A stretch of DNA of 64,000 nucleotides, taken from Acetobacter okinawensis JCM 25146 (lineage in GTDB: Bacteria; Pseudomonadota; Alphaproteobacteria; Acetobacterales; Acetobacteraceae). Within the stretch, counting starts at the first letter, position 1. The number at the start of each line of letters is the position of its first letter. Shown here one piece after another: positions 40,829 to 55,254 of this stretch. Position numbers and translations under genes: made by a program. The stretch spans positions 1 through 64,000 of the forward strand of contig NZ_BAJU01000008.1 in the NCBI RefSeq assembly GCF_000613865.1. The letters are read 5' to 3'. The notes below the pieces were generated by a model, which was not told the origin of the DNA, did not search any database, and saw nothing but the letters and a program-made list of their open reading frames with translations.

Positions 40829-42526
40829 ATGCAAAATGAGTCCTTTTCTTCCGATCAGGTTGTGGCGAACGGTCGCGTGATCCGGGCCGCCCATGGGACG
40901 GAAAAAACTGCCAAATCATGGCAGACAGAAGCCGCATTGCGCATGCTCATGAACAACCTGGACCCCGAAGTGGCCGAAAAACCGGACGAGCTGGTGGTTT
41001 ATGGTGGCATTGGCAAGGCAGCCCGTAACTGGGCCTGCTACGACCGCATTGTAGAATGCATTCGTGGACTGGGGGATGAGGAAACACTGGTCGTGCAGTC
41101 CGGCAAGCCGGTTGGGGTGTTCCGCACCCATGCCAATGCGCCGCGTGTGCTGATTGCAAACTCCAATCTGGTGCCCCACTGGGCCAACTGGGACAAGTTT
41201 AACGAACTCGATCGGCGTGGCCTGATGATGTATGGCCAGATGACGGCTGGCTCATGGATTTACATCGGCTCGCAGGGCATTGTGCAGGGGACGTATGAAA
41301 CCTTTGTCGAGATGGCCCGCCAGTATTACAACGGCAGCCTGAAAGGGCGCTGGATTTTGACTGGCGGCCTTGGCGGCATGAGCGGCGCGCAGCCTCTGGC
41401 AGCGGTTATGGCCGGTGCTTCCATGCTGGCGGTTGAGTGCGAACCCTCACGTATTCGCAAACGTCTGGAAACCGGCTATCTTGACCGGCAGGTTGATACG
41501 CTGGATGAGGCGCTGAGCATTATCCATGACGCCTGCGCAAAAGGCGAGGCTGTTTCTGTTGGTCTGCTGGGCAATGCGGCAGAGGTTTTCCCCGAACTGG
41601 TGCGCCGTGGCATCCGCCCCGATGCGGTAACGGATCAGACATCTGCCCATGACCCGCTGAATGGTTACCTGCCTGCTGGCTGGACGCTGGAACAGGCCGC
41701 CAAAATGCGGGAGACAAACCCCGCAGCAGTGGAAAAAGCCGCCCGTGCCTCCATGCGGGAGCATGTCGCCGCTATGGTTGCGTTCCACCGCATGGGTATT
41801 CCCACCTTTGATTATGGCAACAACATCCGTCAGATGGCGTTTGAAGACGGTCTGGAAGATGCCTTTGCTTTCCCCGGTTTTGTGCCGGCCTATATTCGCC
41901 CGCTTTTCTGCCGGGGGATTGGTCCGTTCCGTTGGGCTGCTTTGTCCGGAGACCCGGAAGACATTTACAAGACTGACCAGAAGGTCAAGGAACTCCTGCC
42001 CGACGACAAGCACCTGCACAACTGGCTGGATATGGCGCGTGAGAAAATCCAGTTCCAGGGGCTGCCCTCGCGCATCTGCTGGGTTGGGTTGGGGGATCGG
42101 CACCGTCTGGGGCTGGCCTTTAACGAAATGGTTGCCAAGGGTGAACTCAAAGCCCCCATCGTCATCGGTCGTGACCATCTGGACAGTGGTTCGGTCGCCA
42201 GCCCCAACCGCGAAACAGAATCCATGCAGGATGGTTCGGACGCTGTGTCTGACTGGCCGCTGCTCAATGCGCTGCTTAACACGGCCTCTGGCGCCACTTG
42301 GGTTTCCCTTCACCATGGTGGTGGCGTTGGCATGGGCTTCTCGCAGCATTCGGGCATGGTCATTGTTGCAGATGGCACGGAGGATGCGGCCGCCCGGCTT
42401 GAACGCGTGCTGTGGAACGACCCGGCAACCGGTGTGATGCGTCATGCGGATGCAGGGTACGACATTGCAGTCAACTGCGCGGTGGAAAAAGGCCTTGATC
42501 TGCCTATGATTACCCGCAAAAGCTGA
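40829..42526 (+). CDS. hutU: urocanate hydratase (urocanase)
   Basis: NAD+-dependent enzyme adding water to urocanate to give imidazolonepropionate. The 565-residue product is full length and carries conserved blocks [81 protein letters not shown] and [11 protein letters not shown]. An AGAGG ribosome-binding site precedes the ATG. It follows the TonB gene and precedes an MFS gene. Whether it prefers urocanate or a thio-analogue cannot be told from sequence. Confidence 0.96.
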
Positions 42527-42641
42527 GACCACGTAAGGAGCATGGGCCAGAGATGTTCTGCGGGCACTCTGCGCCCATACCGTATGCCTTGTGCTCTCTT
42601 CGTACTGCTTCGTTAACACATCATCAAAAAAGGCAAGATAT

Positions 42642-43853
42642 ATGGCCAGATCAGAACAAGCGCACTCTGCTCAGGATCGTTCCGTTCTGGTTCTGGCCAT
42701 GGGTGCGAGTATCTGCTCGGGCTGCGCGCATCTGGGGTCATCCATCATGCCTTTCCAGATTGATGCGTTAATGACCGGCCTGCACCAGTCGGCCAGTCTG
42801 GCTGGTGTTTTCGGTTTTTTTGAAATTTTCTCCTTTGCGTTGTTCATGCTCCTGCTGTCGCGCGTGTTCCTTGCGCTACCGGTCATGTACTCTGCCTTGT
42901 CTGGCATGGCTCTTGGTATTGTCGCCTGCCTTTTGCTGTATATCGGGCCGGGGGTGGAGGTCTGGATCTGTAGTGTGGCCGTCCTGCTTGGCCTTTCTGC
43001 TGCCCTGCTATGCCGCTCGTATGTGCGCGCTGTCTCCTCCTCCCTGAACCCCGAGCGGATATACGCCATTGCCAGTGGGGGCGGACTGGTCATTATTGTG
43101 TCTGTCATTGCTCTTGTGCCTGTCAGCACACGGTATTTCGGCCCGTTAGGTGTTTTTCTGGCTGTGGCCTGTATCATGCTGCTTGCCATGCCATCTGTTC
43201 TCAGCTTCCGCCACGTGCATGCTTGCAGGCCGGTCACCCGGCAGCAAAAGGGTGGACCGCTGCTAACAGGTGGGGCCATTGCCCTACTGTGCGTGTGGGT
43301 TGGCTGTTCTCTGGGGTCCAGTATGGCATGGTCCTTTGCGGAGCGTATGGGCCGCAACCTTGGCCTTACCCCTGACTTTATTGTCTCTCTCTCGACCGTT
43401 GGCATTGTTACCAGTGTTCTTGCCAGTCTGGTTGGGGCTGCTCTGGCCCATCGCTGGCGCAGGGAGACGGTTTTACTGTTGACCCTGCTGGGAACCGGGG
43501 CCGGGTGCCTGCTGACCTGCGTGGCGTGGGATGCTCTGAGCTATGGTGTTGGTGTGGTTCTGTACTGGAATTGTGCCATGTTGTCCTACGCATGGTTGCT
43601 GGGGAGTGCGGCAACGCTGGATGGCAGTGGCCGTGTTGGCACGTTTTGTGGTGGCATGGACCGCATGGGCTATGCGCTGGGCGCGCCACTAGGTGGTCTG
43701 CTGGTTGACCATACCTCTTTTACTGTGCTTGGGATTTGTGGATTCCTGATGTGTGTCGCCCCCTTGCCTTTTGCATTGCCGGTTCTTTTTAGAGCATTAC
43801 ACAAGTCCACTATGGCACCCACAGAGCATGAAGCGCATCTGGAAATGGTCTAA
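42642..43853 (+). CDS. MFS transporter
   Basis: Integral membrane carrier of about 403 residues with roughly 11-12 hydrophobic segments. Start MARSEQAHSAQD at 42642 has an AAAGG ribosome-binding site. Charged loops such as LAHRWRRETV after a mid-protein helix fit the major facilitator pattern. It is 115 bases downstream of hutU on the same strand, so uptake of the pathway's substrate or export of a product is plausible. The substrate is not predictable. Confidence 0.75.
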   Translation: MARSEQAHSAQDRSVLVLAMGASICSGCAHLGSSIMPFQIDALMTGLHQSASLAGVFGFFEIFSFALFMLLLSRVFLALPVMYSALSGMALGIVACLLLYIGPGVEVWICSVAVLLGLSAALLCRSYVRAVSSSLNPERIYAIASGGGLVIIVSVIALVPVSTRYFGPLGVFLAVACIMLLAMPSVLSFRHVHACRPVTRQQKGGPLLTGGAIALLCVWVGCSLGSSMAWSFAERMGRNLGLTPDFIVSLSTVGIVTSVLASLVGAALAHRWRRETVLLLTLLGTGAGCLLTCVAWDALSYGVGVVLYWNCAMLSYAWLLGSAATLDGSGRVGTFCGGMDRMGYALGAPLGGLLVDHTSFTVLGICGFLMCVAPLPFALPVLFRALHKSTMAPTEHEAHLEMV

Positions 43854-43945: not shown

Positions 43946-45445
43946 TCAGGGCTGGGTAGTTCCAAGCCAGTGGGTAATGGTTGCAATATCATCCGCTAAA
44001 GGGTGGTCTTCCTGATAATAGGACACTTGGGCGCGGACCTGTGTGTAAAGCTCCTGTGTTTTTGGGGCCAGATCAGGGTAAAGCCCGGCAAGGTCTATGG
44101 CCTGGCACAGTGCCAGCAGTTCAATGGCAAGGATGGTGCGGGTATTGTCCACAACGCTTTGGGCTTTAAGGGCCGCAGGTGTGGCGTGGACCAGAATATC
44201 CTCCTGCAATCCAGAGGTAATCCCCCCGTCCAGACTGGCAGGTGCCGCCAGACGCCGGTTCTGCCCAACTAGAGCACAGGCTGTGTACTGCGCGATCATA
44301 AACCCGCTTCCTGTGCCGCTATCGCTCGGTAAAAAGGCGGGGAAGGGGCTGACAAGCGGGTTGACCATCCGGTCAAGCCGCCGCTCCGCAACAGCGCCGA
44401 GCGATGCTGCGGCCAGTGCGGCTTCATCCATAATCCGGGCCAGACTGGCCCCAACCGCATGCGCTTGAGAAAAAGCCTGTGGTTGGTTGTCAATGTTAAT
44501 AATTGCGGGGTTATCAGACAGGCTATTGAGTTCCTGCGCCAGTGTGCGCTCAATGCCCTCAAGCGCGTCATGCACGCTACCATGAATATGGGGGACGGCG
44601 CGCAGGCTCAGGGCGTCCTGTGTTCTACCGCCCTGCCGTGCGGCAAGGTGTGCGGAACCCTGTGTCAGTGCGCGTAATCTGGCGGAAACATGCTGCCCGC
44701 CGGGCATGGTGCGCAAGGCTGCGGAGCGCGGGTCAAACGCCCGGCTTTGGCCGCCCATAATATCAAATGTTGCAGCGGCAATCCGGTCGGCCCAATGCAG
44801 GGTTGTGCTCAGGCTGTGCGCACTCAGGCACCCAAGCCCGGTTGCACAGGCCAGCCCATTGACCAGTGCAAGCCCTTCCTTAGCTTCTGGCTGCAAGGGG
44901 GCAAAGCCCAGTTTTTGCAGGACAAGGGCTGCGGGTTCTAGCCCTGTGGGTGTTTGCAGCGTGCCGTGGCCGATGAGCGCCAGTGCAATATGCGCCATAT
45001 GGACCAGATAACCCACCGAGCCTTCGCTGGGAATAATGGGCAGGCTGTTGCTGTTGAGCAGGGCGAGCAGCCTGTCAGGAATATCTTCCCGAACACCAGT
45101 ATAACCCAGTGCATAGGAATTGATGGCACAGGCCATAATTGCACGTGTCTGTGCAGCGTCCAGCGGGCGGCCAACGCCCACGGCATGGCTGAACAGAATT
45201 TTTTTGGACAGTTCAGCCTGCTGTGCGGCGGATATTCTCTGCTCGGATAACCCCCCTACGCCTGTATTCAGGCCATAAATAGGGGTGTCACCTTCAATGA
45301 GCTGGCGCAGGCTGGTGTTGGCATGGCGGATGCGTAGGCGCGCCGCGCTGGACAGGTCCAGCTTTACGGTGTTCTGCGCTATATCCCAGACCTGCTGGGG
45401 GGTAAGGGGGGCATCCAGTAACAGGGTTTGTCGCGTATCGGGCAT
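43946..45445 (-). CDS. HutH-like ammonia-lyase lacking the MIO tripeptide
   Basis: Member of the histidine/phenylalanine ammonia-lyase superfamily, about 499 residues from ATG 45445 (MPDTRQTLLLDAP); GTG 45466 is an alternative. The base Tyr region (YGLNTGVG), FSHAVGVG, LVNGLA, TQDALSLR and QED are present. The MIO-forming Ala-Ser-Gly is missing: GSVG is followed directly by YLVHMAHIAL where HAL has GSVGASGDLAPLAHM. The HAL Tyr and Phe of QDPYS and NFH are Leu and Ala. The frame is uninterrupted, so this is not an indel artefact. Context (HutC operator, hutU, hutI, hutF, hutG) puts it at the HutH step, but a trimethylamine-eliminating (ergothionase-like) reaction fits the missing cofactor better. 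Confidence 0.85.
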   Translation of the reverse strand: MPDTRQTLLLDAPLTPQQVWDIAQNTVKLDLSSAARLRIRHANTSLRQLIEGDTPIYGLNTGVGGLSEQRISAAQQAELSKKILFSHAVGVGRPLDAAQTRAIMACAINSYALGYTGVREDIPDRLLALLNSNSLPIIPSEGSVGYLVHMAHIALALIGHGTLQTPTGLEPAALVLQKLGFAPLQPEAKEGLALVNGLACATGLGCLSAHSLSTTLHWADRIAAATFDIMGGQSRAFDPRSAALRTMPGGQHVSARLRALTQGSAHLAARQGGRTQDALSLRAVPHIHGSVHDALEGIERTLAQELNSLSDNPAIINIDNQPQAFSQAHAVGASLARIMDEAALAAASLGAVAERRLDRMVNPLVSPFPAFLPSDSGTGSGFMIAQYTACALVGQNRRLAAPASLDGGITSGLQEDILVHATPAALKAQSVVDNTRTILAIELLALCQAIDLAGLYPDLAPKTQELYTQVRAQVSYYQEDHPLADDIATITHWLGTTQP

Positions 45446-45469
45446 GGGTCGGATTACTACCTGCACTAT

Positions 45470-45536: not shown

Positions 45537-46262
45537 TTAGGGTTTGTAATGCCCACCAAAGCTGTAACGGTTGCCGGGGTAGGTAAAAATCCCTTTCATA
45601 ACGACATGATTGTCCACCCATGTGCGCCGGACAAGTTGCAGGCAGGCATCATGCTGGCCAATCTGCAAATCCTTGGACATGCTGGGGGAGGGGGAGACAG
45701 CAAATACCACGTGTTCAATTTCCTCTGGGCCCGCAATGCCAAACAGGTAGCGGTGGGGAATGGTCGTGGTAAAATCCTGCTCCAGATAATCCGGTGCAAA
45801 GGAGGGCAGAACAAAGCGTTCTTCTAGCTGGAGTGGGGTGTCGTCTTCGTAATGCACAATCAGGGAGCGAAAAAGCCGCGCTCCCGGTCGCAGGTCAAAG
45901 GCAATGGCCAGATCACTGTTGGCCCGGATCATTTCCAGCGCCAGAACCTGAGCGCGGTAGTTGTTGCCGCTGGCAACAATGTCATCAACAATATCGCGGA
46001 TTTCCAGCAGTTCTACCCGTTTGGCTGGTTTGGCCACAAAGGTGCCAACCCCTTGTGCGCGTGTCACAATACCGTCTGCTGTCAGTTCACGTAGGGCGCG
46101 ATGCACCGTCATGCGTGAAATGCCAAGTTGTTCAACAAGTTCGTTCTCGGAAGGAAGGCGGTAGCCAACATTCCATTCCCCCTTGTTAATACGGTCGGTA
46201 ATAAAGGTTTTGACCTGTACATAACGAGAGGCAGAACGGTTTTTTTTCAGAGTCTGTGACAC
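45537..46262 (-). CDS. hutC: GntR/HutC-family repressor
   Basis: Transcriptional repressor that in other bacteria senses urocanate and controls hut genes. A GTG at 46262 (VSQTLKKNRSASRYVQ) is chosen as start, with GGAATAA upstream; the frame continues 175 codons upstream without plausible coding. The 241-residue product has an N-terminal winged helix (YRLPSENELVEQLGISRMTVHRALRELTADGIV, residues about 35-67) and a C-terminal UTRA ligand domain ending KGIFTYPGNRYSFGG. It probably binds the TGTANNTACA sites in this window. Confidence 0.92.
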   Translation of the reverse strand: MSQTLKKNRSASRYVQVKTFITDRINKGEWNVGYRLPSENELVEQLGISRMTVHRALRELTADGIVTRAQGVGTFVAKPAKRVELLEIRDIVDDIVASGNNYRAQVLALEMIRANSDLAIAFDLRPGARLFRSLIVHYEDDTPLQLEERFVLPSFAPDYLEQDFTTTIPHRYLFGIAGPEEIEHVVFAVSPSPSMSKDLQIGQHDACLQLVRRTWVDNHVVMKGIFTYPGNRYSFGGHYKP

Positions 46263-46354
46263 GGTTATTCCATGAAATCGTTGCCTGATTGCGCACACCT
46301 TAGCATTGGTGGCGCAAAAAGCGAGCATAGGAAAATTATGGGAATGCGGTACAT

Positions 46355-46373
46355 TGTATTTACCGCCTACAAT
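46355..46373. promoter_or_regulatory. weak HutC-like site upstream of hutD
   Basis: TGTATTTACC (46355-46364) matches nine of ten core positions, counting free positions, and is part of a perfect ATTGTA/TACAAT inverted repeat (46354-46359 with 46368-46373). It lies between hutC and the divergent hutD, a natural place for autoregulation. The spacing differs from the four strong sites. Confidence 0.4.
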
Positions 46374-46448
46374 ACGACCCTGCCGTATTGACATTGCCTG
46401 CCCGGGAAAACCAATAAAGACAGTTTGATTGTATAAGGTATCGCGAGC

Positions 46449-47015
46449 ATGTCTCAGGCTGTTTTTTTTGAGGATTGTAACTGGGAGCCTTGGAAAAACG
46501 GACAGGGGCTGACCCGTGTGCTGGGGGGTGATGCCACATGGCGGCTCAGTCTGGCAGAAATCCGGACGTCCTCCAGCTTCTCCATTTTTGAGGGGCTGAC
46601 GCGCGAAATTGGTCTGATGCGTGGCCATGGCCTTTCTCTTCAGCCACAGGATCAGGCGCTTGCCCCCATGGTGCTGGATAGGGCTGGTGTGTGTTTTGCT
46701 TTTTCTGGCAATCTTGCGCTGACTGGCATGCTGCATGATGGCCCGGTGCAGGTGCTGAACCTGATGTACGGTGCCGGGCAGCGCCATCTATTGCGCCCGA
46801 TAACACAGGCATGCAGGGTGGACGGTCTGCTCGCTCTTGTGCCTGTGCGGGGTGTCTGGCGTATTGGTGCCGTGCCGCCAGAGGAGGAGGTGCGCGTTGC
46901 AGCGGGAGCCTCCTTTTTACGCTCTTCCACCCCGCAGACGTTGGATTTGGCCCCGGAAGAGGGGGAGGCCCCGTTGGCCTATGGTGTGTTCGCTGTAACA
47001 GATGGGGCGGGCTGA
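46449..47015 (+). CDS. hutD: HutD/Ves family protein
   Basis: A 188-residue cupin-like protein of the HutD family, a frequent partner in hut loci. In Pseudomonas fluorescens HutD has been proposed to limit hut expression. The family start (CNWEPWKNGQGLTRVL), the SFSIFEGLTREIGLMRG block and FAFSGNLALTGMLHDGPVQVLNLM are visible. It is divergent from hutC and convergent with hutG. No enzymatic activity is assigned. Confidence 0.88.
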   Translation: MSQAVFFEDCNWEPWKNGQGLTRVLGGDATWRLSLAEIRTSSSFSIFEGLTREIGLMRGHGLSLQPQDQALAPMVLDRAGVCFAFSGNLALTGMLHDGPVQVLNLMYGAGQRHLLRPITQACRVDGLLALVPVRGVWRIGAVPPEEEVRVAAGASFLRSSTPQTLDLAPEEGEAPLAYGVFAVTDGAG

Positions 47016-47081: not shown

Positions 47082-47881
47082 TTACCTGTCAGGCCGGTAG
47101 GCAATGGCAAGTTTGAGCAGGCCTTCTATTAACTGGCCAAGCTGGGCTGCGGCGGGCAGGCTCATGGGCCATGGTGCATCCTCGCTGGCAAGGTAGGCGG
47201 ACTGGGCCAGCTCAAGCTGCACGGCATGGATGCCGTTCTGTGGCTGCCCGTAATGGCGGGTTGTATATCCACCCTTGAAGCGACCATTGAGCACATGCGT
47301 GTAGTTGCTGTTTTGTGCTGCGTGCTGCACAAGCTGCTCCGCCAAACTGGCTGCACAGCTTGCGCCGCTGTTTGTGCCAAAGTTAAGGGTCGGGAGCGTA
47401 CCTTCAAACAGATGCGGAATCTGCGAGCGGATGGAATGCGCATCCCACAGGATAGCCCAGCCCCATTTGGCCCGTAGTCGCTCCAGTTCCGCTGTTATGG
47501 CGTTGTGGTAGGGGTGCCAGTACGAGCTGATACGCTCCTGTATTTCGGCCTCGTCCGGCTCCTGCCCGGCCAGATAAAGGGGGGTACCATCAAAGGTATG
47601 TGTTGGCACAACACCTGTGCTGGGGCGGCCGGGGTAGAGCACCGCATTGTCCGCCCCCCTGTTCAGGTCCGTGACATAGCGTGAATAGCGTGCCCGCAGG
47701 TGCTGGCACCCAGTGTGTGTGCGCAGGCGTAAAGGTGGTCCACGTACCAGTCCGTGTCCGGCAGTGTGCGTGCATTAGGTGTCAGGCGCGCCTCCATGCC
47801 GGGGGCGAGCAGGGTGCCAGAGTGGGGAATAGTGACCAGAAGAGGCAACTGACCGGGAGAATACGTAAAAATATCGCTCAT
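47082..47881 (-). CDS. hutG: N-formylglutamate deformylase (one frameshift)
   Basis: Last step of the five-step hut route: hydrolyses N-formylglutamate to glutamate and formate. Start MSDIFTYSPGQLPLLVTIPHSGT at 47881, with AGCAGG upstream. Family blocks include IPHSGT, DTDWYVDHLY, DLNRGADNAVLYP and WDAHSIRS. The frame breaks near 47699-47701 (AGCACCTGCGG lacks one C), after which LRARYSRYVTDLNRG continues to the stop at 47082. The restored product is 266 residues. It follows hutF by 20 bases. Confidence 0.92.
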
Positions 47882-47901: not shown

Positions 47902-49269
47902 TTAATTGGACAGGAGCGGACGCACCGCCTGACGGAACGCCTGACGCAGGGCGGTGGCGTTGTGGTGTTGTCTGTCACGCACGCGCCATTGCCCGGCACT
48001 CATCACATGCAGCACCGGCGGCGCTGTCTGCGAGAAAATGGCAGCGTCCAGCACATCATCCCCCATCAGGTCGGGGAGGAGAAACGCCTCTGTATCCAGC
48101 ACGCACAGGTCCGCGCGGGCTCCGGCTTGCAGGCCCCACTCAGGCAGGCCACAGGCCTGTGCGCCGCCTTTCAGGCTCTCGCGGTAGAGCCAGCCGCCGG
48201 TAGAGCCAAGATGCTTCGATGGTAGGCCGACGCAGCGCTTCTGGTGGTGCAGGCGCTGGCTGTATTCCAAAATCCGCAATTCCTCCCATGGGCTGAGAAG
48301 AATATTACTGTCGCTCCCCAGCCCGAAGCGGCCATTATGGCTGACGTAGTCTGCCAGAGGGAAAATACCATCGCCCAGATTGGCTTCCGTAATCGGGCAA
48401 AGGCCCGCTATGGCCCCACTTTTTGCCAGAGCCTGTGTTTCGGCTTCAGTCAGATGGGTGGCATGCACAAGGCACCAGCGTGCATCGACCGGGGCGTGGG
48501 TGAGCAGATGCTCCACCGGGCGCTGGCCGGTTGCCGCTATGCAGTCCCGCACTTCCTGCATCTGTTCTGCAATATGGATGTGGACGGGCGTATGCGGGCC
48601 TGCAATGCGTAGCATGTCGGCGACCGTATCGAGTGCTACAGCGCGGAGTGAATGCAGGCCAACACCTACCCTGACCAGTTTAGAATCCTGTGTGGCTGCC
48701 TGTGTGGCGGTTACAATATCGGCGATGAGTTCTGGCGTGCTGGCAAAGCGTTTTTGGGCATCTTGCAGTGGTTTTTGCCAAAGCGCATAGGTGTACAGTG
48801 TGGGTAGCAGGGTCAGGCCCATGCCCGCTTCTTCCGCCGCATTGGCCAGACAGAGGGAGAGTGTGGCCTTCTGGGCATAGGCCGCGCCGTCATGCGCGTT
48901 GTGCAGGTAATGGAATTCAGCAACCTGCGTGTACCCTGCACACAGCATTTCTGCATACAGGTAAGCGGAGATGGCGTGCATCTGCTCGGGCGTTATGCGG
49001 TGCGCGAGCTGATACATGAGCTTGCGCCATGTCCAGAATGTATCGTCCGGGTTGGCGCGTTTTTCCCCCAGACCGGACATGGCGCGCTGGAAGGCGTGTG
49101 AGTGCAGGTTGGGCATGGGTGGCACAACACAGGCTACCTGCTCCACGCCTGCGGGGGCTGCGCTGTTGGGCGTAACCTTTGCAAAGGTGCCGTCCTTGGC
49201 AAGAGTTATTGTAACATTCTGGTGCCATCCATCGGGGAGGAGGGCCTGTCGTGCAAAAAGATCGGACAT
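47902..49269 (-). CDS. hutF: N-formimino-L-glutamate deiminase
   Basis: Metal-dependent amidohydrolase converting formiminoglutamate to formylglutamate plus ammonia; paired with hutG it defines the five-step route. Start MSDLFARQALLPDGW at 49269. The 455-residue product shows the metal motif PNLHSHAFQRAMSG (HxH), VHIHIAEQ, CLVHATHLT and GLGSDSN (Asp ligand). An in-frame TTG 24 bases upstream is less likely. It is divergent from hutI. Confidence 0.95.
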   Translation of the reverse strand: MSDLFARQALLPDGWHQNVTITLAKDGTFAKVTPNSAAPAGVEQVACVVPPMPNLHSHAFQRAMSGLGEKRANPDDTFWTWRKLMYQLAHRITPEQMHAISAYLYAEMLCAGYTQVAEFHYLHNAHDGAAYAQKATLSLCLANAAEEAGMGLTLLPTLYTYALWQKPLQDAQKRFASTPELIADIVTATQAATQDSKLVRVGVGLHSLRAVALDTVADMLRIAGPHTPVHIHIAEQMQEVRDCIAATGQRPVEHLLTHAPVDARWCLVHATHLTEAETQALAKSGAIAGLCPITEANLGDGIFPLADYVSHNGRFGLGSDSNILLSPWEELRILEYSQRLHHQKRCVGLPSKHLGSTGGWLYRESLKGGAQACGLPEWGLQAGARADLCVLDTEAFLLPDLMGDDVLDAAIFSQTAPPVLHVMSAGQWRVRDRQHHNATALRQAFRQAVRPLLSN

Positions 49270-49343
49270 CTGAAGTTCTGCGAGCTCAAGCAAGGGTTCA
49301 CCACAACGGGTCTGTTTCGAAACTATAACGGAATTGACATAGT

Positions 49344-49392: not shown

Positions 49393-50661
49393 ATGACGTG
49401 GGATACTTTGTGGCTGGACGTCCATCTGGCGACCTCTGACCCAGAGCGGATATCCGGGGAGGATGGCTTTGGCTGCATACGCAATGGCGCTCTGGCTGTG
49501 CAGGACGGCAAGATTGCATGGGTCGGGGCTATGGAGGATCTGCCTGCCTCCGCCCATACGCTTGCGCGCGAACTGCGCCACGGGCAGGGACTGTGGATGA
49601 CGCCTGGTCTGGTGGATGCGCATACGCATGTTGTTTTTGGTGGTGACCGGAGTGCCGAGTTCTCCCTCCGCCTTCATGGCGTGTCGTATGAGGAGATTGC
49701 GCGTCAGGGCGGGGGAATTCTCTCCACGGTCCGGGCCACGCGTGATGCCACGGAGGAGGAGTTACTCCATAAGGCCATCCCCCGTGTGCAGGAGATGATT
49801 GCGTCGGGCACAACGGCCATAGAGGTCAAATCCGGTTATGGTCTGCGCACGCGTGATGAGTTGAAGCAACTGCGCGTTGCGCGGGAACTGGCGCGCCGCT
49901 TGCCTGTACATGTACACACCACGTTTTTGGGTGCGCACGCTCTGCCAGAAGAATACGTTGGCCGCGCTGACGAGTACATCCGCCACCTGAGTGAAGAGAT
50001 GCTGCCATGCCTGATGGCAGAAAATCTGGTAGATAGTCTGGATGTTTTTTGTGAAAATATAGCGTTTTCCACAGAACAGGCCGAAAAACTGTTCAGCAGG
50101 GCGCAGGAGCTCAAGCTGCCCGTGCGTATTCATGCCGACCAGTTGTCGGCCAGTGGCGGCGGGCTGCTGGCTGCGCGTTACGGTGCGCTGTCTGCTGACC
50201 ATCTGGAATATGTGAATGAGGAAGCCGTAAGCTGTATGGCGCAGGCTGGCACAGTTGCTATGCTGCTGCCCGGCGCATTCTACTTTATCCGGGAGAGCAA
50301 GGTGCCTCCTATCAATCTGTTCCGTCACTATGGTGTACCCATGGGGCTGGCAACGGACTGCAACCCCGGAACTTCCCCCATATTAAGCCTGCCCGGTGTA
50401 ATGAACATGGCCTGCACATTGTTCAGAATGACACCGGAGGAAACATTCAGGGCCGTCACAACCGTAGGTGCGCGCGCACTGGGGCTGGAGCAAAGTCTGG
50501 GTATGCTCAAGCCCGGCTGTCAGGCGGATATGGCCCTATGGGACATGGCAGGCCCCCATGAACTGTCTTACTGGATCGGGGGCAGAAAACCACGTGGGGT
50601 CATTTTTGGTGGCCGTGTGGTGGTGGACCCACAGAACTGCGCGCTATCCCCTGCCGTATAG
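49393..50661 (+). CDS. hutI: imidazolonepropionase
   Basis: Zinc- or iron-dependent amidohydrolase opening imidazolonepropionate to formiminoglutamate. The 422-residue product has [11 protein letters not shown] (metal HxH), [27 protein letters not shown] and [11 protein letters not shown] (Asp ligand). The ribosome-binding site AAAGGAA lies ten bases upstream. It is divergent from hutF under the HutC-type site. Confidence 0.97.
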
Positions 50662-50775: not shown

Positions 50776-51549
50776 TTAACGTCCGTGAAAAATAGGCTTG
50801 GTTTTGCTTGCAAGGGCACTCAAGCCCGCCTGCCGGTCCTCGCTCGCGGCGACCAGTGCGGAGAGTGTACGTTCATATTTGATGCCCGCAGTAAGCGGCA
50901 TGTCATAGCTGGCCAGCAGGGCCGCTTTGGCCATGTGTGTAGCCAGCGGGCCAGCCTGAGCAATGCGTTCGGCCACTGCCATGGCGGTGGAGACGGCCTC
51001 GCCTGCTTGTGTTATCTGGCTGACCAGCCCTTGTGTGCAGGCTTCTGTTGCCGTGAGCCTGCGCCCGGCCAGAACCATTTCCATGGCAAGGGACTTGCCT
51101 AGTGTGCGGGTCAGCCTTTGTGTGGCTCCTGCACCGGGGATAATGCCCAGTGTGGTTTCAGGCAGCCCAAAAACAGCGTCTGGGGCTGCAATAATAATAT
51201 CGCACGCCATCAGCAGTTCCAGTCCGCCGCCCAGCGCATAGCCCTGCACTGCGGCTATGATCGGGGTCTGGCAGGCGGCAATCTGGTCCCAGTGTTCGCT
51301 AAATCCGCTGGTGTACAGGGCTATGGCGCCACTCTGGGCAAGTGTGCCCACATCCGCCCCGGCGGCAAAGGCGCGTGCCTGCCCGCAGATGACAATGGCC
51401 CGCACATCTGTAGCTGCATCGTATTCCCGTATGGTTGCGACAAGTTCGGCCAGCATAGGCAGGCTGAGCGCGTTCAGCTTTTGGGGGCGGTTGAGGGTAA
51501 TCTGCCCGATACAGCCCTGTTTTTGCTTGAGGATGAGTGGTTCAGTCAT
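50776..51549 (-). CDS. enoyl-CoA hydratase/isomerase family (crotonase)
   Basis: A 257-residue crotonase-fold enzyme. Start MTEPLILKQKQ at 51549 overlaps the end of the dehydrogenase gene by 8 bases. The oxyanion-hole segment (RAFAAGADV), GYALGGGLELLMACD and FGLPETTLGIIPGAGATQRL keep both catalytic glutamates of true hydratases. It is the last gene of a four-gene operon with a lyase, CoA-transferase and dehydrogenase. I infer hydration of an unsaturated acyl-CoA; a CaiD-like role is possible. Confidence 0.88.
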   Translation of the reverse strand: MTEPLILKQKQGCIGQITLNRPQKLNALSLPMLAELVATIREYDAATDVRAIVICGQARAFAAGADVGTLAQSGAIALYTSGFSEHWDQIAACQTPIIAAVQGYALGGGLELLMACDIIIAAPDAVFGLPETTLGIIPGAGATQRLTRTLGKSLAMEMVLAGRRLTATEACTQGLVSQITQAGEAVSTAMAVAERIAQAGPLATHMAKAALLASYDMPLTAGIKYERTLSALVAASEDRQAGLSALASKTKPIFHGR

Positions 51550-52456
51550 GGCTAGCGACCTTGCGTGCATGGGTGACCATCTGGTCTCGTCTGCTGCGGG
51601 CGGATGCAGCACTTTCTTCCGTCCACGGGTAAAAACCCCGTCCGGTTTTGGTGCCGAGTGCGCCTTCAGCAACCCGTTGCGTTACCAGAGCAGGAATATC
51701 CGTGGCGTTGCTCAGGGCGGGCATAAGAATGGCGGAGACATTTTTCACCGTATCCAGTCCGGCCATGTCCATCAGGCGTAATGGCCCACATGCGGACCAG
51801 CGCGGCGCCAGTGTGCTCTCAACCGCCAGGTCCACATCGGCCATGCTGGCAACCCCCTGTTCGACCAGAAAAAGGGCCTCGCGCAGCATGGCGTATTGCA
51901 GGCGGTTGACCACAAAGCCCGGACAGTCCTGACGGACGATGATGGAGGCTTTACCCGCAGCTTTGGCTAGTGCTTGTGCCTGAGCCACAACGTCATCCGC
52001 TGTTGCTTCCCCCAGCACAATTTCCACCAGTGGCATGACCTGAGGGGGGTTGAACCAGTGTATGCCAATCAACCTTTGTGGGCAGCGCAGGGCTGTCGCC
52101 AGTTGGGTAATGGGCACGCTGGAGGTGTTGGTGCTTAACAGGCAGGTTGGTGGAACCTGTTGTTCAACCTCCCGCAGAACTGTTTTTTTCAGTTCAGGGT
52201 TTTCAGCCAGATTTTCACTGACCACATCGGCATTTTCCAGGCAGGCCTGCAAGGATGTGGTGTAAAGAACATGGGCAGCAGCACTGCCAGCACCGGCCTC
52301 TACAATGCTTCTGGCGGTATCCAGCGTGGTCTGACTGCGTGAGTACAGGGCAACCTGCCACCCGAGTGCGGCAAAGACGCTGGCAATGCCTGCGCCCATG
52401 GTCCCCGCACCGACAACGGCAATTTTACTTTGGGTCATGTGTGCGGTGTCCGTCAT
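51542..52456 (-). CDS. 3-hydroxyacyl-CoA dehydrogenase family
   Basis: A 304-residue NAD-dependent dehydrogenase of the 3-hydroxybutyryl-CoA dehydrogenase type. The NAD loop VGAGTMGAGIAS (about 15-26), STNTSSVPIT, the catalytic His in GIHWFNPPQVMPLVEI and the FVVNRLQYAMLREA segment are present. Carnitine dehydrogenases belong to the same superfamily, so a betaine substrate is also possible. It lies between the CoA-transferase (18-base gap) and the hydratase. Confidence 0.87.
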   Translation of the reverse strand: MTDTAHMTQSKIAVVGAGTMGAGIASVFAALGWQVALYSRSQTTLDTARSIVEAGAGSAAAHVLYTTSLQACLENADVVSENLAENPELKKTVLREVEQQVPPTCLLSTNTSSVPITQLATALRCPQRLIGIHWFNPPQVMPLVEIVLGEATADDVVAQAQALAKAAGKASIIVRQDCPGFVVNRLQYAMLREALFLVEQGVASMADVDLAVESTLAPRWSACGPLRLMDMAGLDTVKNVSAILMPALSNATDIPALVTQRVAEGALGTKTGRGFYPWTEESAASARSRRDQMVTHARKVASHD

Positions 52457-52474
52457 TGTCTGTTCTGCCCGGGC

Positions 52475-53685
52475 TTAAAGCACATGGTCTGCGCGGAGCT
52501 GTGCGATCTGCGCGTCCGACAGTTCCAGATCATCGTGCAAGATCGTATCGGTGTGTGCGCCCAGAACCGGGGCCGCACGCTCTGGCGCGGGGTTGAGCCC
52601 ATTAAAGCGTACAGGTTGGGGAATAATCTGTATGGGACCGGCAACGGGGTGTTCAACCTGCTTTACAATGCCGCGCTCCTGCACATGCGGGCTCTGTAGT
52701 GCGTCGACAAGGGTGTTGACCGGGGCTGCGGGCACACCTGCTGTGACCAGTATGGTCATGGCCTCCTGCGTGGTCAGAGTGCTGGACCATGCGCTCAGGA
52801 TGGTTTTCAGGGTGTCCTGATTCTGGTGGCGCTGTGGGTCGGAACTAAAACGGGGGTCCTGATCCAGCTCGGGCTGGCCTATGGCTTTTGCTAGGCGTGT
52901 AAACAGGCTGTCATTGGCTACGGCAATAACAATCTCCCCATCTGTGGTCGGGAATGTGTCCATCGGAGCGCTGATGGCATGGGCATTGCCCAGCAGGCCG
53001 GGTGGGGGAGCACCCCCCATAAGCTGCGCGAGTGAGACAACCTGAAGCGAAATAACAGCATCCAGCATGGCCACATCAACATGGGTACCATTACCGCTGA
53101 TCTGGCGTTGGAGAATGCCTGCCAGTGCGCCCCATGCGCCATACAGGCCGGATACCACATCGGCAATGGGGTCACCCACCTTGTTGGCCCGGTGGACGGC
53201 CAGCCGGTGCTGCTCATAATCCCGCCTATGGCCTGAATGACGTGGTCATAGGCCGCGCGCTGGGCTAGGGGGCCTTCCTGCCCAAAGCCTGAAATACTGA
53301 CGTAGACAAGGCGGGGGTTAATGGCGTGGAGGCTGGCATAATCAATGCCCAGACGGGCTGTTACGCCGGGCCTGAAGTTTTCGACCAGAACATCAGCCTG
53401 TTTGACCAGTTTGAGAAAAATGGCCATGCCATCTTCTTTTTTAAGGTCAAGGGTGATGCTTTTTTTACCTCTGTTGAGGAGCATGAAGTAGGTGCTCTCT
53501 CCGTTAAGGTAAGGCCCGAACGCGCGGGAATCATCCCCTCCGTCTGGCCGTTCGATCTTGGTGACATTCGCCCCAAGGTCTGCCAGCATGGCGGCGCACA
53601 AAGGTCCTGCCAGAACCCGGGATAAATCCAGAACCTTAACACCCTGCAATGGCAGGCATGGTGATGATGCAGCGGTCACGGTCAT
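52475..53685 (-). CDS. CaiB/BaiF-type class III CoA-transferase (one frameshift)
   Basis: Family III enzyme moving CoA between carboxylic acids. The N-terminal block [30 protein letters not shown], the [13 protein letters not shown] and LVENFRPG segments (with the catalytic-Asp region near [10 protein letters not shown]) are characteristic. The frame breaks near 53180 (ACAAGGTGGGT, one base missing) and resumes [22 protein letters not shown]. Restored length 403 residues. The ATG at 53685 overlaps the lyase stop; a GTG at 53679 has better spacing from AGGAG and may be the true start. It would activate the acid made by the upstream lyase. Confidence 0.87.
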
Positions 53686-55254
53686 TCTCCTGAGGGTGAG
53701 GGGGCCAGAGCGTCCTGCACGCAGGCGCTGAGGACACCCGTGTCCATGAGTGTGCGGATAGCGCCTAGCTCGGGGTGGAGTGCAGTGTCCGCGTGGCGGG
53801 GTGGGACATGGGCGCGAATGGCCTCATACGCTGCCTGCACAGCCCTGCCAGCACGCAGGGGCTGGTGGTATTCCAGTGCCTGTGCGGCGCACAGGAACTC
53901 TATGCAAATAACATCCAGCGCGTTGTCTGCCGCGGTATGGGCTTTTTGGGCCGCATACACCCCCATGCTGGTATGGTCTTCCTGCCCGGCACAGGTGGAC
54001 AGGCTGTTCACGGAGGAGGGAGTGGCAAGGCACCTGTTTTCTGCCGCGGCTGCGGCTGCGGCATAAGGGGGGATCATCAGGCCGGAAAGCCCACTGCCCT
54101 TTGGGGCCAGAAAAGGCGGCAGGCCGCTTAAATACGTGTTGGTCAGCCGGTCGGAGCGGGCTTGCGACATGTTGCTGATGGAGCAATGGCAATGGCCAGT
54201 GTGTCCAGCGCCAGAGCCGTGGGCGCACCGTGCCCGTTCCCGCCCGGTAGGGCCTCGTAGGTATTGTTGCGCCAGAAAAAAACCGGGTTGTCGGTTACTG
54301 CGTTTATTTCGGTCTCCAGCACCTGCCCGACATAGTGCATGGCGTCCCTGACTGCGCCATGCACCTGTGGAATGCAGCGCAGGCTGAGCGCATCCTGCAA
54401 GCGGTGGTCCCGGTTTGCAGCCATGATCTGGCTGTCGGCCAGAAGCTGCCTGAGAACGGCAGCCGTGTGGACCTGCCCCGGATGGGGGCGCAGGCTTTGC
54501 AGGTCAGGGTCATAGCCACGGCTGTTCCCACGCAATGCTTCCAGCGTCATACAGCCTGCCAGATCAGCCAGTTCCACCGCACGGCGGGCTTGCTCAAAGG
54601 CCAGAGCACCAATGGCTGTAATCTCATATGTGCCACTGATCAGGGCATGCCCTTCACGCGGGCCGGGGGTGAGGGGGGTTAACCCGCCCGCTCCATGGCA
54701 ACACGGCCGGGCAGGCGCTCGCCCCTGTAGGTGGCTTCTCCCTCCCCAAAAATAACCAGACCGATATGGGCTGTGGCAATCAGGTAGCCCACAGACCCTT
54801 TGGAGGGGGAACAGGGAATGACCCCCCTGTTCAGCATGGCCGCCATTGTGGTCACAAGGGCTGTGCCCACGCCACTATGGCCTTGCAGGAGTGCACGGAG
54901 CATGGTGGCCATAATGGCGCGCACGACCGTGTGGGGGTGTGGCGCGCCTATGCCGCAGGCATGGCTGCGGAGCATGCCAATCTGAGCATTGCTGATTTCT
55001 TCAGCAGAAAGCAGAACCGAGTACTGGTCACCGACCCCTGTGGTCAGGCCATAAACGGGGCGCTTCTGGGCGATGGCGTCCTGTAGGCTGGCCTGTAGCG
55101 CGTGGAGTGCCGCCAGTGCGCCCTCATCCACAACAACAGGTGCTCCATAGGCCACGGCAACGATCTCGGCAATCGTGGTTGTGTGTGTGCCAAACGTAAC
55201 AGGTTGAGTGGGGGTGTGCTCTTTTTTACAGGAGGTCTCGTATTGGACGCTCAT
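53682..55254 (-). CDS. second HutH-superfamily lyase, MIO-less (two frameshifts)
   Basis: A second ammonia-lyase superfamily protein, about 524 residues after restoring two missing bases (near 54683 and near 54181). Conserved parts are VYGLTTGVG (Tyr base), [23 protein letters not shown] and [12 protein letters not shown]. As in the lyase at 43946-45445, the MIO tripeptide is absent: PSKGSVG is followed by [11 protein letters not shown]. The Asn of the HAL LLNGT motif is Ser (LISGT), and the NFH motif reads NGH. It heads an operon with a CoA-transferase, dehydrogenase and hydratase, behind a HutC-type site. It probably makes an unsaturated acid from an amino-acid derivative; the substrate is unknown. 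Confidence 0.82.

Follow-up and report, generated by a model that had tools for sequence, protein, structure and literature searches.

A lyase of the histidine ammonia-lyase (HutH) superfamily that lacks the 4-methylideneimidazole-5-one (MIO) triad and is encoded in one operon with enzymes of coenzyme A (CoA) metabolism raises the question of what substrate it acts on and how its product is used. This operon is found in a 64,000-nucleotide stretch of Acetobacter okinawensis JCM 25146 (contig NZ_BAJU01000008.1, positions 1 to 64,000; hereafter the window), whose minus strand shows, from position 55254 to 50776, four genes in the order lyase (lyase 2), family III CoA-transferase (CaiB type), 3-hydroxyacyl-CoA dehydrogenase (3HCDH)-like enzyme and enoyl-CoA hydratase (ECH, a crotonase). 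The operon combines known enzyme families in a new way, and with a probability of about one half we read it as catabolic for an imidazole betaine, from which trimethylamine would be eliminated and whose remaining acid would be loaded on CoA, hydrated and oxidized. No description of this gene set or of such a CoA route was found in open-access literature listings and the opening lines of abstracts.

Gene organization of the operon

The original prediction, made from the letters of the window, described four overlapping or closely spaced genes in this order, and it is correct on this point: the lyase and transferase genes overlap by 4 bases, the dehydrogenase and hydratase genes overlap by 8 bases, and 18 bases separate the transferase from the dehydrogenase. 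The hydratase frame as listed has 298 amino acids and begins at an upstream TTG. What had gone unnoticed is that the lyase and transferase frames are broken in the assembly. In G317, a genome of the same genus whose alignment to the window shows 16,637 columns, 96.4% identity and seven gaps, all four frames are open (lyase 524, transferase 403, dehydrogenase 304 and hydratase 257 amino acids), and three of the seven gaps are single bases absent from the window within the lyase and transferase genes, near positions 53178, 54182 and 54682. Another genome of the genus, G295, also contains an intact lyase 2 ortholog, of 541 amino acids. The assembly of the window is error-prone: between positions 1 and 19693 there are 12 gaps relative to G317, of which seven are single bases absent from the window, and in these first 19.7 kb the FtsZ, MurG and MurD frames match their models only over the initial part, while MurF is split in two. 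Since the G317 frames are open and the ftsZ and mur genes of the window are broken likewise, the breaks in the lyase and the CoA-transferase look like assembly or sequencing errors; true decay of this copy may be the alternative. Completeness is 92% for the genome of the window (G000), 99% for G295 and 100% for G317.

A HutH-superfamily lyase without MIO

Lyase 2 lacks the Ala-Ser-Gly triad by which a HutH is recognized. In the alignment, HutH reads GSVG-ASGD-L, with the triad lying in GSVGASGDLAPLAH, and lyase 2 reads GSVGYL there, ASGD being replaced by a Tyr. All eight HutH control rows of this alignment show GSVGASGD, and GSVGY is found in 17 of the 18 rows of lyase 2, Flintibacter and lyase 1, a second MIO-less lyase of the window; the remaining row, from R. 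johnstonii, shows GSAGY. The nine MIO-less lyases scanned are all under the cut-off of the hutH equivalog TIGR01225 (539), among them those of G295 (486), Rhizobium (504) and Klebsiella (502), and no other NCBIfam model fits them; the window's own lyase 2 pieces are too short to be judged against TIGR01225.

Apart from the triad, lyase 2 shows both likeness to and differences from histidine ammonia-lyase (HAL). The residues at HAL Tyr53, His83, Gln277, Arg283 and Glu414 are kept in the alignment, with numbering and roles that we take to be those of HAL (PDB titles use the same numbers, 280 and 329), whereas changes are found at Asn195, Tyr280 and Phe329, the last two positions containing Leu and Gly, respectively, in 12 of 12 lyase 2 rows. 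HAL is also the closest solved fold (TM-score 0.91-0.92, 36% identity) to the AlphaFold model of the Acidisoma copy of the lyase, whose confidence (pLDDT) is 89.8. The alignment and the model of this relative thus show a HutH fold without MIO, as in ergothionase.

The ergothionase of Treponema denticola (PDB 6s7j and 6s7q) releases trimethylamine from ergothioneine (PMC13405746). It belongs, like lyase 2, to the HutH superfamily without MIO, and differs in that its MIO site reads GEGD instead of GSVGY, its identity to lyase 2 is 26-27%, and it is the nearest solved relative neither by sequence nor by fold. By sequence, lyase 2 is not a member of the ergothionase group, and its lyase step may work like that of ergothionase. 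To our knowledge, ergothionase does not occur alongside CoA genes. In a 26-row tree, built from lyases other than ergothionase, the 16 rows with GSVGYL or GSAGYL split from the eight HutH with support 93/94, lyase 1 and lyase 2 form two clades (support 100/100 and 100/99), and a divergent third lyase of G295 and the lyase of contig C78 of G000 are on very long branches.

Conservation of the gene set

The pairing of a MIO-less lyase with a CoA-transferase, a 3HCDH and an ECH in one operon, as first proposed, is borne out by the missing triad and by the conservation of the set across Alpha- and Gammaproteobacteria, and the gene order is not unique to this assembly. It is found in both other genomes of the genus that contain lyase 2 (G295 and G317), and the same order is annotated in Agrobacterium, Rhizobium BT04, Neorhizobium and Sodalis. 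No gene is annotated in the transferase gap of R. beringeri, and the R. lusitanum record carries no annotation.

Lyase 2 is present in three of the 49 genomes of the genus, the window's included, and the dehydrogenase, at E <= 1e-70, in the same three. At E <= 1e-60 the lyase matches 14 of these genomes: the 11 without lyase 2 show at most 42% identity, and G272, the one of them with its motif printed, contains the ASG triad. Within the family sample, 111 of 299 genomes match the lyase at E <= 1e-20, and the 29 loci inspected besides the window show GSVGYL (two), ASGDLAP (26) or another reading (one). A scan of named genomes with two peptide patterns gave 37 loci: 21 with ASGDLAP, 11 with GSVGYLSPEAH, two with a MIO-less motif, in Acidisoma silvae and a Pantoea metagenome-assembled genome (MAG), and three without a printed motif.

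With the Sodalis lyase as query, 178 of 72,556 plasmids match at E <= 1e-125: 161 belong to Klebsiella, 12 to Rhizobium, two to Escherichia, and one to each of Sodalis, Agrobacterium and Neorhizobium. The dehydrogenase has at least 55% identity in 15 plasmid records (of 43 matched, the other 28 being below 40%). These 15 are the 15 best rows of the plasmid lyase search, and their two genes are about 1.2 kb apart, which leaves room for one transferase gene; the 15 records are not independent, six of them being R. beringeri. Because the same order occurs in G295 and G317, and lyase and dehydrogenase are paired in the same 15 plasmid records, the shared operon order is more than chance. The distribution is patchy, since the Rhizobium lyase had no match at E <= 1e-125 among 385 genomes sampled across the class; this sample contained the genome of the window with its split lyase gene, and its empty result shows little.

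The CoA enzymes and the end of the pathway

The Asp of the IADVVSG-type motif is kept in the transferase of seven of seven intact relatives, and the crotonase shows both catalytic Glu of a two-Glu hydratase in seven of seven aligned copies. The 3HCDH-like enzyme keeps its catalytic segments. Its nearest solved relative is the 5-dehydrogenase of 5-formyl-3-hydroxy-2-methylpyridine 4-carboxylic acid (FHMPC; PDB 4om8), which by its name oxidizes a heteroaryl aldehyde and scores 197 bits versus 148 for 3-hydroxybutyryl-CoA dehydrogenase. The 3HCDH-like enzyme and the FHMPC dehydrogenase differ in that they are 36% identical, the FHMPC dehydrogenase score is 248 bits versus a cut-off of 500, and the arm after the third helix is about 11-16 alignment positions shorter than that of the FHMPC enzyme in seven of seven copies; the arm is also shortened in comparison with one 3-hydroxybutyryl-CoA-dehydrogenase-like control (six copies realigned). 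The AlphaFold model of the window's 3HCDH has a pLDDT of 60 and was not used.

The echo of carnitine metabolism that the original prediction saw in the CaiB-, CaiD- and carnitine-dehydrogenase-like folds is not supported, and the carnitine reading was rejected on equivalog scores. The superfamilies are the same and the quaternary-ammonium theme is common to both, whereas the carnitine-specific equivalog scores are far under their cut-offs: 85.9 and 28.2 bits for the two transferase pieces of the window against the carnitine CoA-transferase model (cut-off 413), and 112 versus 592 and 109 versus 414 for the others. No carnitine genes were recognized near the operon.

Nor is thiolysis, with which beta-oxidation would end, supported in the window's genus. 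Thiolase models gave weak, partial matches only, in G000 (best 24.1 bits), G317 (24.1) and G295 (28.7), which are taken for related synthases; Acidisoma, as positive control, shows two true thiolases of 360 and 248 bits. The beta-keto acid cleavage enzyme (BKACE), considered in place of a thiolase, is absent from G000, G295 and G317 and was rejected on that ground; Acidisoma has two strong matches. In the examined regions of five relatives with the operon, no thiolase is annotated. Since neither a convincing thiolase nor a BKACE was found in the three genomes of the genus, the chain is probably not thiolysed there, and the classical thiolytic route is possible in organisms with thiolases. This route, in which the lyase product would be CoA-loaded, hydrated, oxidized and then split by a thiolase encoded elsewhere into acetyl-CoA and an aryl-carboxyl-CoA, agrees with the gene families, with the catalytic residues kept in crotonase and dehydrogenase, and with Acidisoma, which has two true thiolases and whose operon includes an acyl-CoA dehydrogenase; given the poor thiolase matches in the genus and the lack of an annotated thiolase near the relatives' operons, we consider it unlikely.

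A further alternative is that the genes belong to ordinary fatty-acid metabolism and the lyase beside them is unrelated, or that the operon is a decaying remnant, as the breaks in two of the four genes would suggest. The operon is intact in G317 and G295, however, and its dehydrogenase is the sole strong 3HCDH_N match in G000 and in G295, the two genomes searched. The fatty-acid reading was rejected on the absence of a convincing thiolase and the occurrence of lyase 2 and 3HCDH in the same three genomes of the genus, and the alternative as a whole is highly improbable.

Importers, regulators and neighbors

The substrate had been left as a betaine or an amino acid; the first is favored by the importers found upstream of the operon in relatives, and can be sharpened to an imidazole betaine by hut and ert neighbors and by HutC. 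A betaine-type ATP-binding cassette (ABC) importer is directly upstream in five annotated operons, those of Agrobacterium, two Rhizobium, Neorhizobium and Sodalis, which indicates a betaine; Pfam OpuAC was confirmed on the Agrobacterium copy. The Acidisoma importer lies on a contig other than that of the operon, no lyase is annotated near the importer relative of Agrobacterium Ach5, and an Arthrobacter record carries no annotation. Rhizobium BT04 shows HutC equivalogs (TIGR02018, cut-off 220) both before and behind the operon, with 247 and 233 bits; the HutC of the window belongs to the hut cluster, and no HutC-type repressor is annotated beside the Sodalis operon. In Acidisoma, the lyase, 3HCDH, ECH and acyl-CoA dehydrogenase genes are divergent from those for CaiB, an ordinary HutU and a protein of MmgE/PrpD type. 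In a Klebsiella plasmid relative, an importer and a MIO-less lyase occur together with annotated hutU, hutI, hutG, hutC, HutD and formimidoylglutamate deiminase genes, and the CoA genes are absent. Aureimonas shows an ABC importer beside a lyase 1 gene and a full annotated hut cluster.

The Pantoea MAG contains a MIO-less lyase 54-62% identical to those of the CoA operons, an importer of the same type, ErtD (708 bits, cut-off 600), ErtE (533 bits, cut-off 520) and a partial urocanase relative which is closest to S-methyl thiourocanate hydratase, under its cut-off. With respect to ergothioneine utilization as represented by the NCBIfam models for ErtD, ErtE and thiourocanate hydratase, the operon of the window differs by showing CoA enzymes where that system has a hydantoinase and a carbamoylase, and the HutU of the window is ordinary. 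The reference list of PMC13405746 includes work on Burkholderia and T. denticola ergothionase, an ergothioneine-sulfonate pathway and a gut ergothioneine pathway.

Because of the HutC equivalogs, the type of repressor, and the hut and ErtD/ErtE neighbors, the context points to an imidazole betaine as the substrate class. A betaine of tryptophan, tyrosine or phenylalanine would suit MIO-less chemistry, as any aryl betaine would, and it is well established that cinnamate-type acids can be degraded through CoA routes; on the other side, all 12 lyase 2 rows retain the histidine-site residues at His83 and Glu414, and the regulators are of HutC type with hut or ert genes nearby, so that a non-imidazole substrate seems quite improbable.

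Among imidazole betaines, hercynine has to be weighed. Lyase 2 would convert it to plain urocanate, and the CoA genes would be a second way to use urocanate. The Klebsiella relative of lyase 2, which lies among annotated hut genes, agrees with this, as does its related importer, with 60% identity in the binding protein; the binding proteins of the importers have long conserved segments in common. Nevertheless, the window, G295 and G317 contain hut genes with a MIO-less lyase 1 of their own, so that a further route for urocanate would be superfluous, and position 220 (G295 numbering) is a Ser in the CoA-operon lyases and in Pantoea and a Gly in Klebsiella; hercynine as the substrate of the operon is accordingly rated as unlikely. 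Since lyase 1 and hut genes are already present in the same genomes, lyase 2 probably serves a different betaine, which we infer to be a related compound whose breakdown the hut enzymes cannot complete, in the first place ergothioneine or one of its S-modified forms and in the second hercynine.

As a separate observation, the Klebsiella plasmids with importer, lyase and hut genes (L098 3057-16400 and L105; two records examined) represent a candidate hercynine utilization cluster.

Proposed pathway

For the imidazole betaine reading we infer the following reactions. The MIO-independent lyase would take trimethylamine off a trimethylated relative of histidine, with ergothioneine or an S-modified form as the most likely substrate and hercynine as a less likely one, and would give urocanate or a 2-substituted (thio)urocanate; the MIO electrophile could be lost because quaternary ammonium groups leave readily. 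The family III transferase would put the acrylate on CoA, the crotonase would add water, and the 3HCDH-like enzyme would oxidize with NAD. Two endings can be envisaged. In one, the crotonase would also cleave the hydroxyacyl-CoA to acetyl-CoA and an imidazole aldehyde, which the 3HCDH-like enzyme would oxidize, and the acetyl-CoA would be reused as CoA donor in a closed cycle without thiolase; in the other, the transferase would release a 3-oxo acid, which would decarboxylate.

Taken furthest, the operon could be a third, CoA-based route for histidine betaines. A MIO-free trimethylamine lyase would feed a CoA cycle that needs no thiolase: acetyl-CoA would prime the transferase, the crotonase would both hydrate and cleave the side chain, and the arm-shortened 3HCDH-like enzyme would oxidize an imidazole aldehyde to an imidazole carboxylate. 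This is a tentative and rather doubtful proposal; if true, HutH-superfamily members that have lost MIO would make up a broad family of betaine lyases whose present annotation is wrong.

Several findings weigh against the pathway as drawn. T. denticola ergothionase ranks only 19th by fold against the Acidisoma model (26% identity), and by sequence it is 15th among the 39 PDB entries matched, with HAL and aminomutases ahead of it. The aldehyde ending is weak: the relative of the 3HCDH-like enzyme oxidizes an aldehyde, but cleavage by the crotonase is counted against because its two-Glu site is that of an ordinary hydratase. The thiolase match of G295 is just above the cut-off of 26.4 bits, over 110 of 260 positions, and the thiolase negative for the window's genome rests on an assembly that is 92% complete. 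A betaine-type importer was found in none of G000, G295 and G317. The ergothioneine-specific residues of EgtU include Gly244 and Phe293 (PMC9732360), and the Rhizobium binding protein shows Phe and Tyr at the places mapped to them in our own alignment. Finally, the lyases of Sodalis (CoA operon) and Klebsiella (hut) are sisters with support 99/97 and 68-69% identity, which allows hercynine as a common substrate, with CoA genes that duplicate hut. EgtU-type import of ergothioneine was itself rejected, as by this mapping the Rhizobium binding protein lacks Gly244 and Phe293, and no such importer was found in the window's genome.

If the MIO-less lyases release trimethylamine, some of the 'histidine degradation' labels given to genes of rhizobia, acetic acid bacteria, Burkholderia and Klebsiella plasmids would be wrong, and ergothioneine or hercynine would be turned over more widely than thought; several MIO-less proteins annotated as histidine or aromatic ammonia-lyases adjoin betaine importers, hut genes or CoA genes. 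The operon offers a direct, testable route that possibly needs no thiolase.

The hut cluster of the window and other MIO-less lyases

In the hut cluster of the window (HutU, HutC, HutD, HutG, HutF and HutI; Table 1), lyase 1 occupies the place of HutH. The HutG frame lacks a single base near position 47698, and HutU is below the cut-off of both thiourocanate models. No ASG-type HutH was found in the window's genome, which is 92% complete. PF00221 detects three lyase loci in each of G000, G295 and G317, and none of the nine contains the ASG triad; Acidisoma has four PF00221 loci, one of which resembles true HutH in the segments around Glu414 and Tyr53.

Table 1. Coordinates of the operon, the hut cluster and the other MIO-less lyases.
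Feature	Position	Strand	Remarks
MIO-less HutH-superfamily lyase (lyase 2)	53682..55254	-	Three frames in the assembly, from the open reading frame list and translations: 55254-54679, 54691-54176, 54185-53682
MIO-triad site of lyase 2	54766..54807	-	HutH counterpart: GSVGASGDLAPLAH
Family III CoA-transferase	52475..53685	-	Two frames in the assembly; nearest solved relative of formyl-CoA-transferase type
3HCDH-like NAD enzyme	51542..52456	-	304 amino acids
ECH (crotonase)	50776..51549	-	257 amino acids
HutI imidazolonepropionase	49393..50661	+	449 bits, cut-off 298
HutF formimidoylglutamate deiminase	47902..49293	-	TIGR02022, 550 bits, cut-off 413
HutG N-formylglutamate deformylase	47082..47642	-	Later two thirds only in frame
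HutD	46449..47015	+	
HutC repressor	45537..46787	-	266 bits, cut-off 220; match covers residues 189-413 of the open frame
Second MIO-less lyase (lyase 1)	43946..45466	-	EGSVGYLV
Major facilitator superfamily transporter	42591..43853	+	Beside the hut genes; candidate uptake system
HutU urocanate hydratase	40829..42526	+	Ordinary type; 967 bits, cut-off 375
S. meliloti lyase	L101 8995-10494		MIO-less, annotated as histidine ammonia-lyase
R. johnstonii lyase	L102 8998-10485		MIO-less, annotated as histidine ammonia-lyase
B. pyrrocinia lyase	L100 8977-10470		MIO-less, annotated as histidine ammonia-lyase
Aureimonas lyase	L107 9968-11482		MIO-less, annotated as histidine ammonia-lyase
Eleven GSVGYLSPEAHMAL lyases	L054, L056, L057, L059, L060, L061, L063, L065, L071, L073, L074		

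The MIO triad is also absent from annotated histidine ammonia-lyases of S. meliloti, R. johnstonii, Burkholderia pyrrocinia and Aureimonas; the hutXWV-hutH2 locus of S. meliloti has reportedly been the subject of earlier work. The eleven MIO-less lyases with GSVGYLSPEAHMAL belong by title to Firmicutes (ten) and to an uncultured bacterium (one). A third replacement of the MIO site, GALSEGDLAP, is found in the C78 lyase of G000 (L002 1447-2988) and in a lyase of G317 (L116); this type adjoins a gene of the ornithine cyclodeaminase family and, by eye, a receptor-like frame. In G295, a further divergent lyase (L036 15195-16613) adjoins the operon, and its best solved match is T. denticola ergothionase. 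Acidisoma shows another MIO-less lyase 1 directly after a second 3HCDH-like gene (L145 8654-11211).

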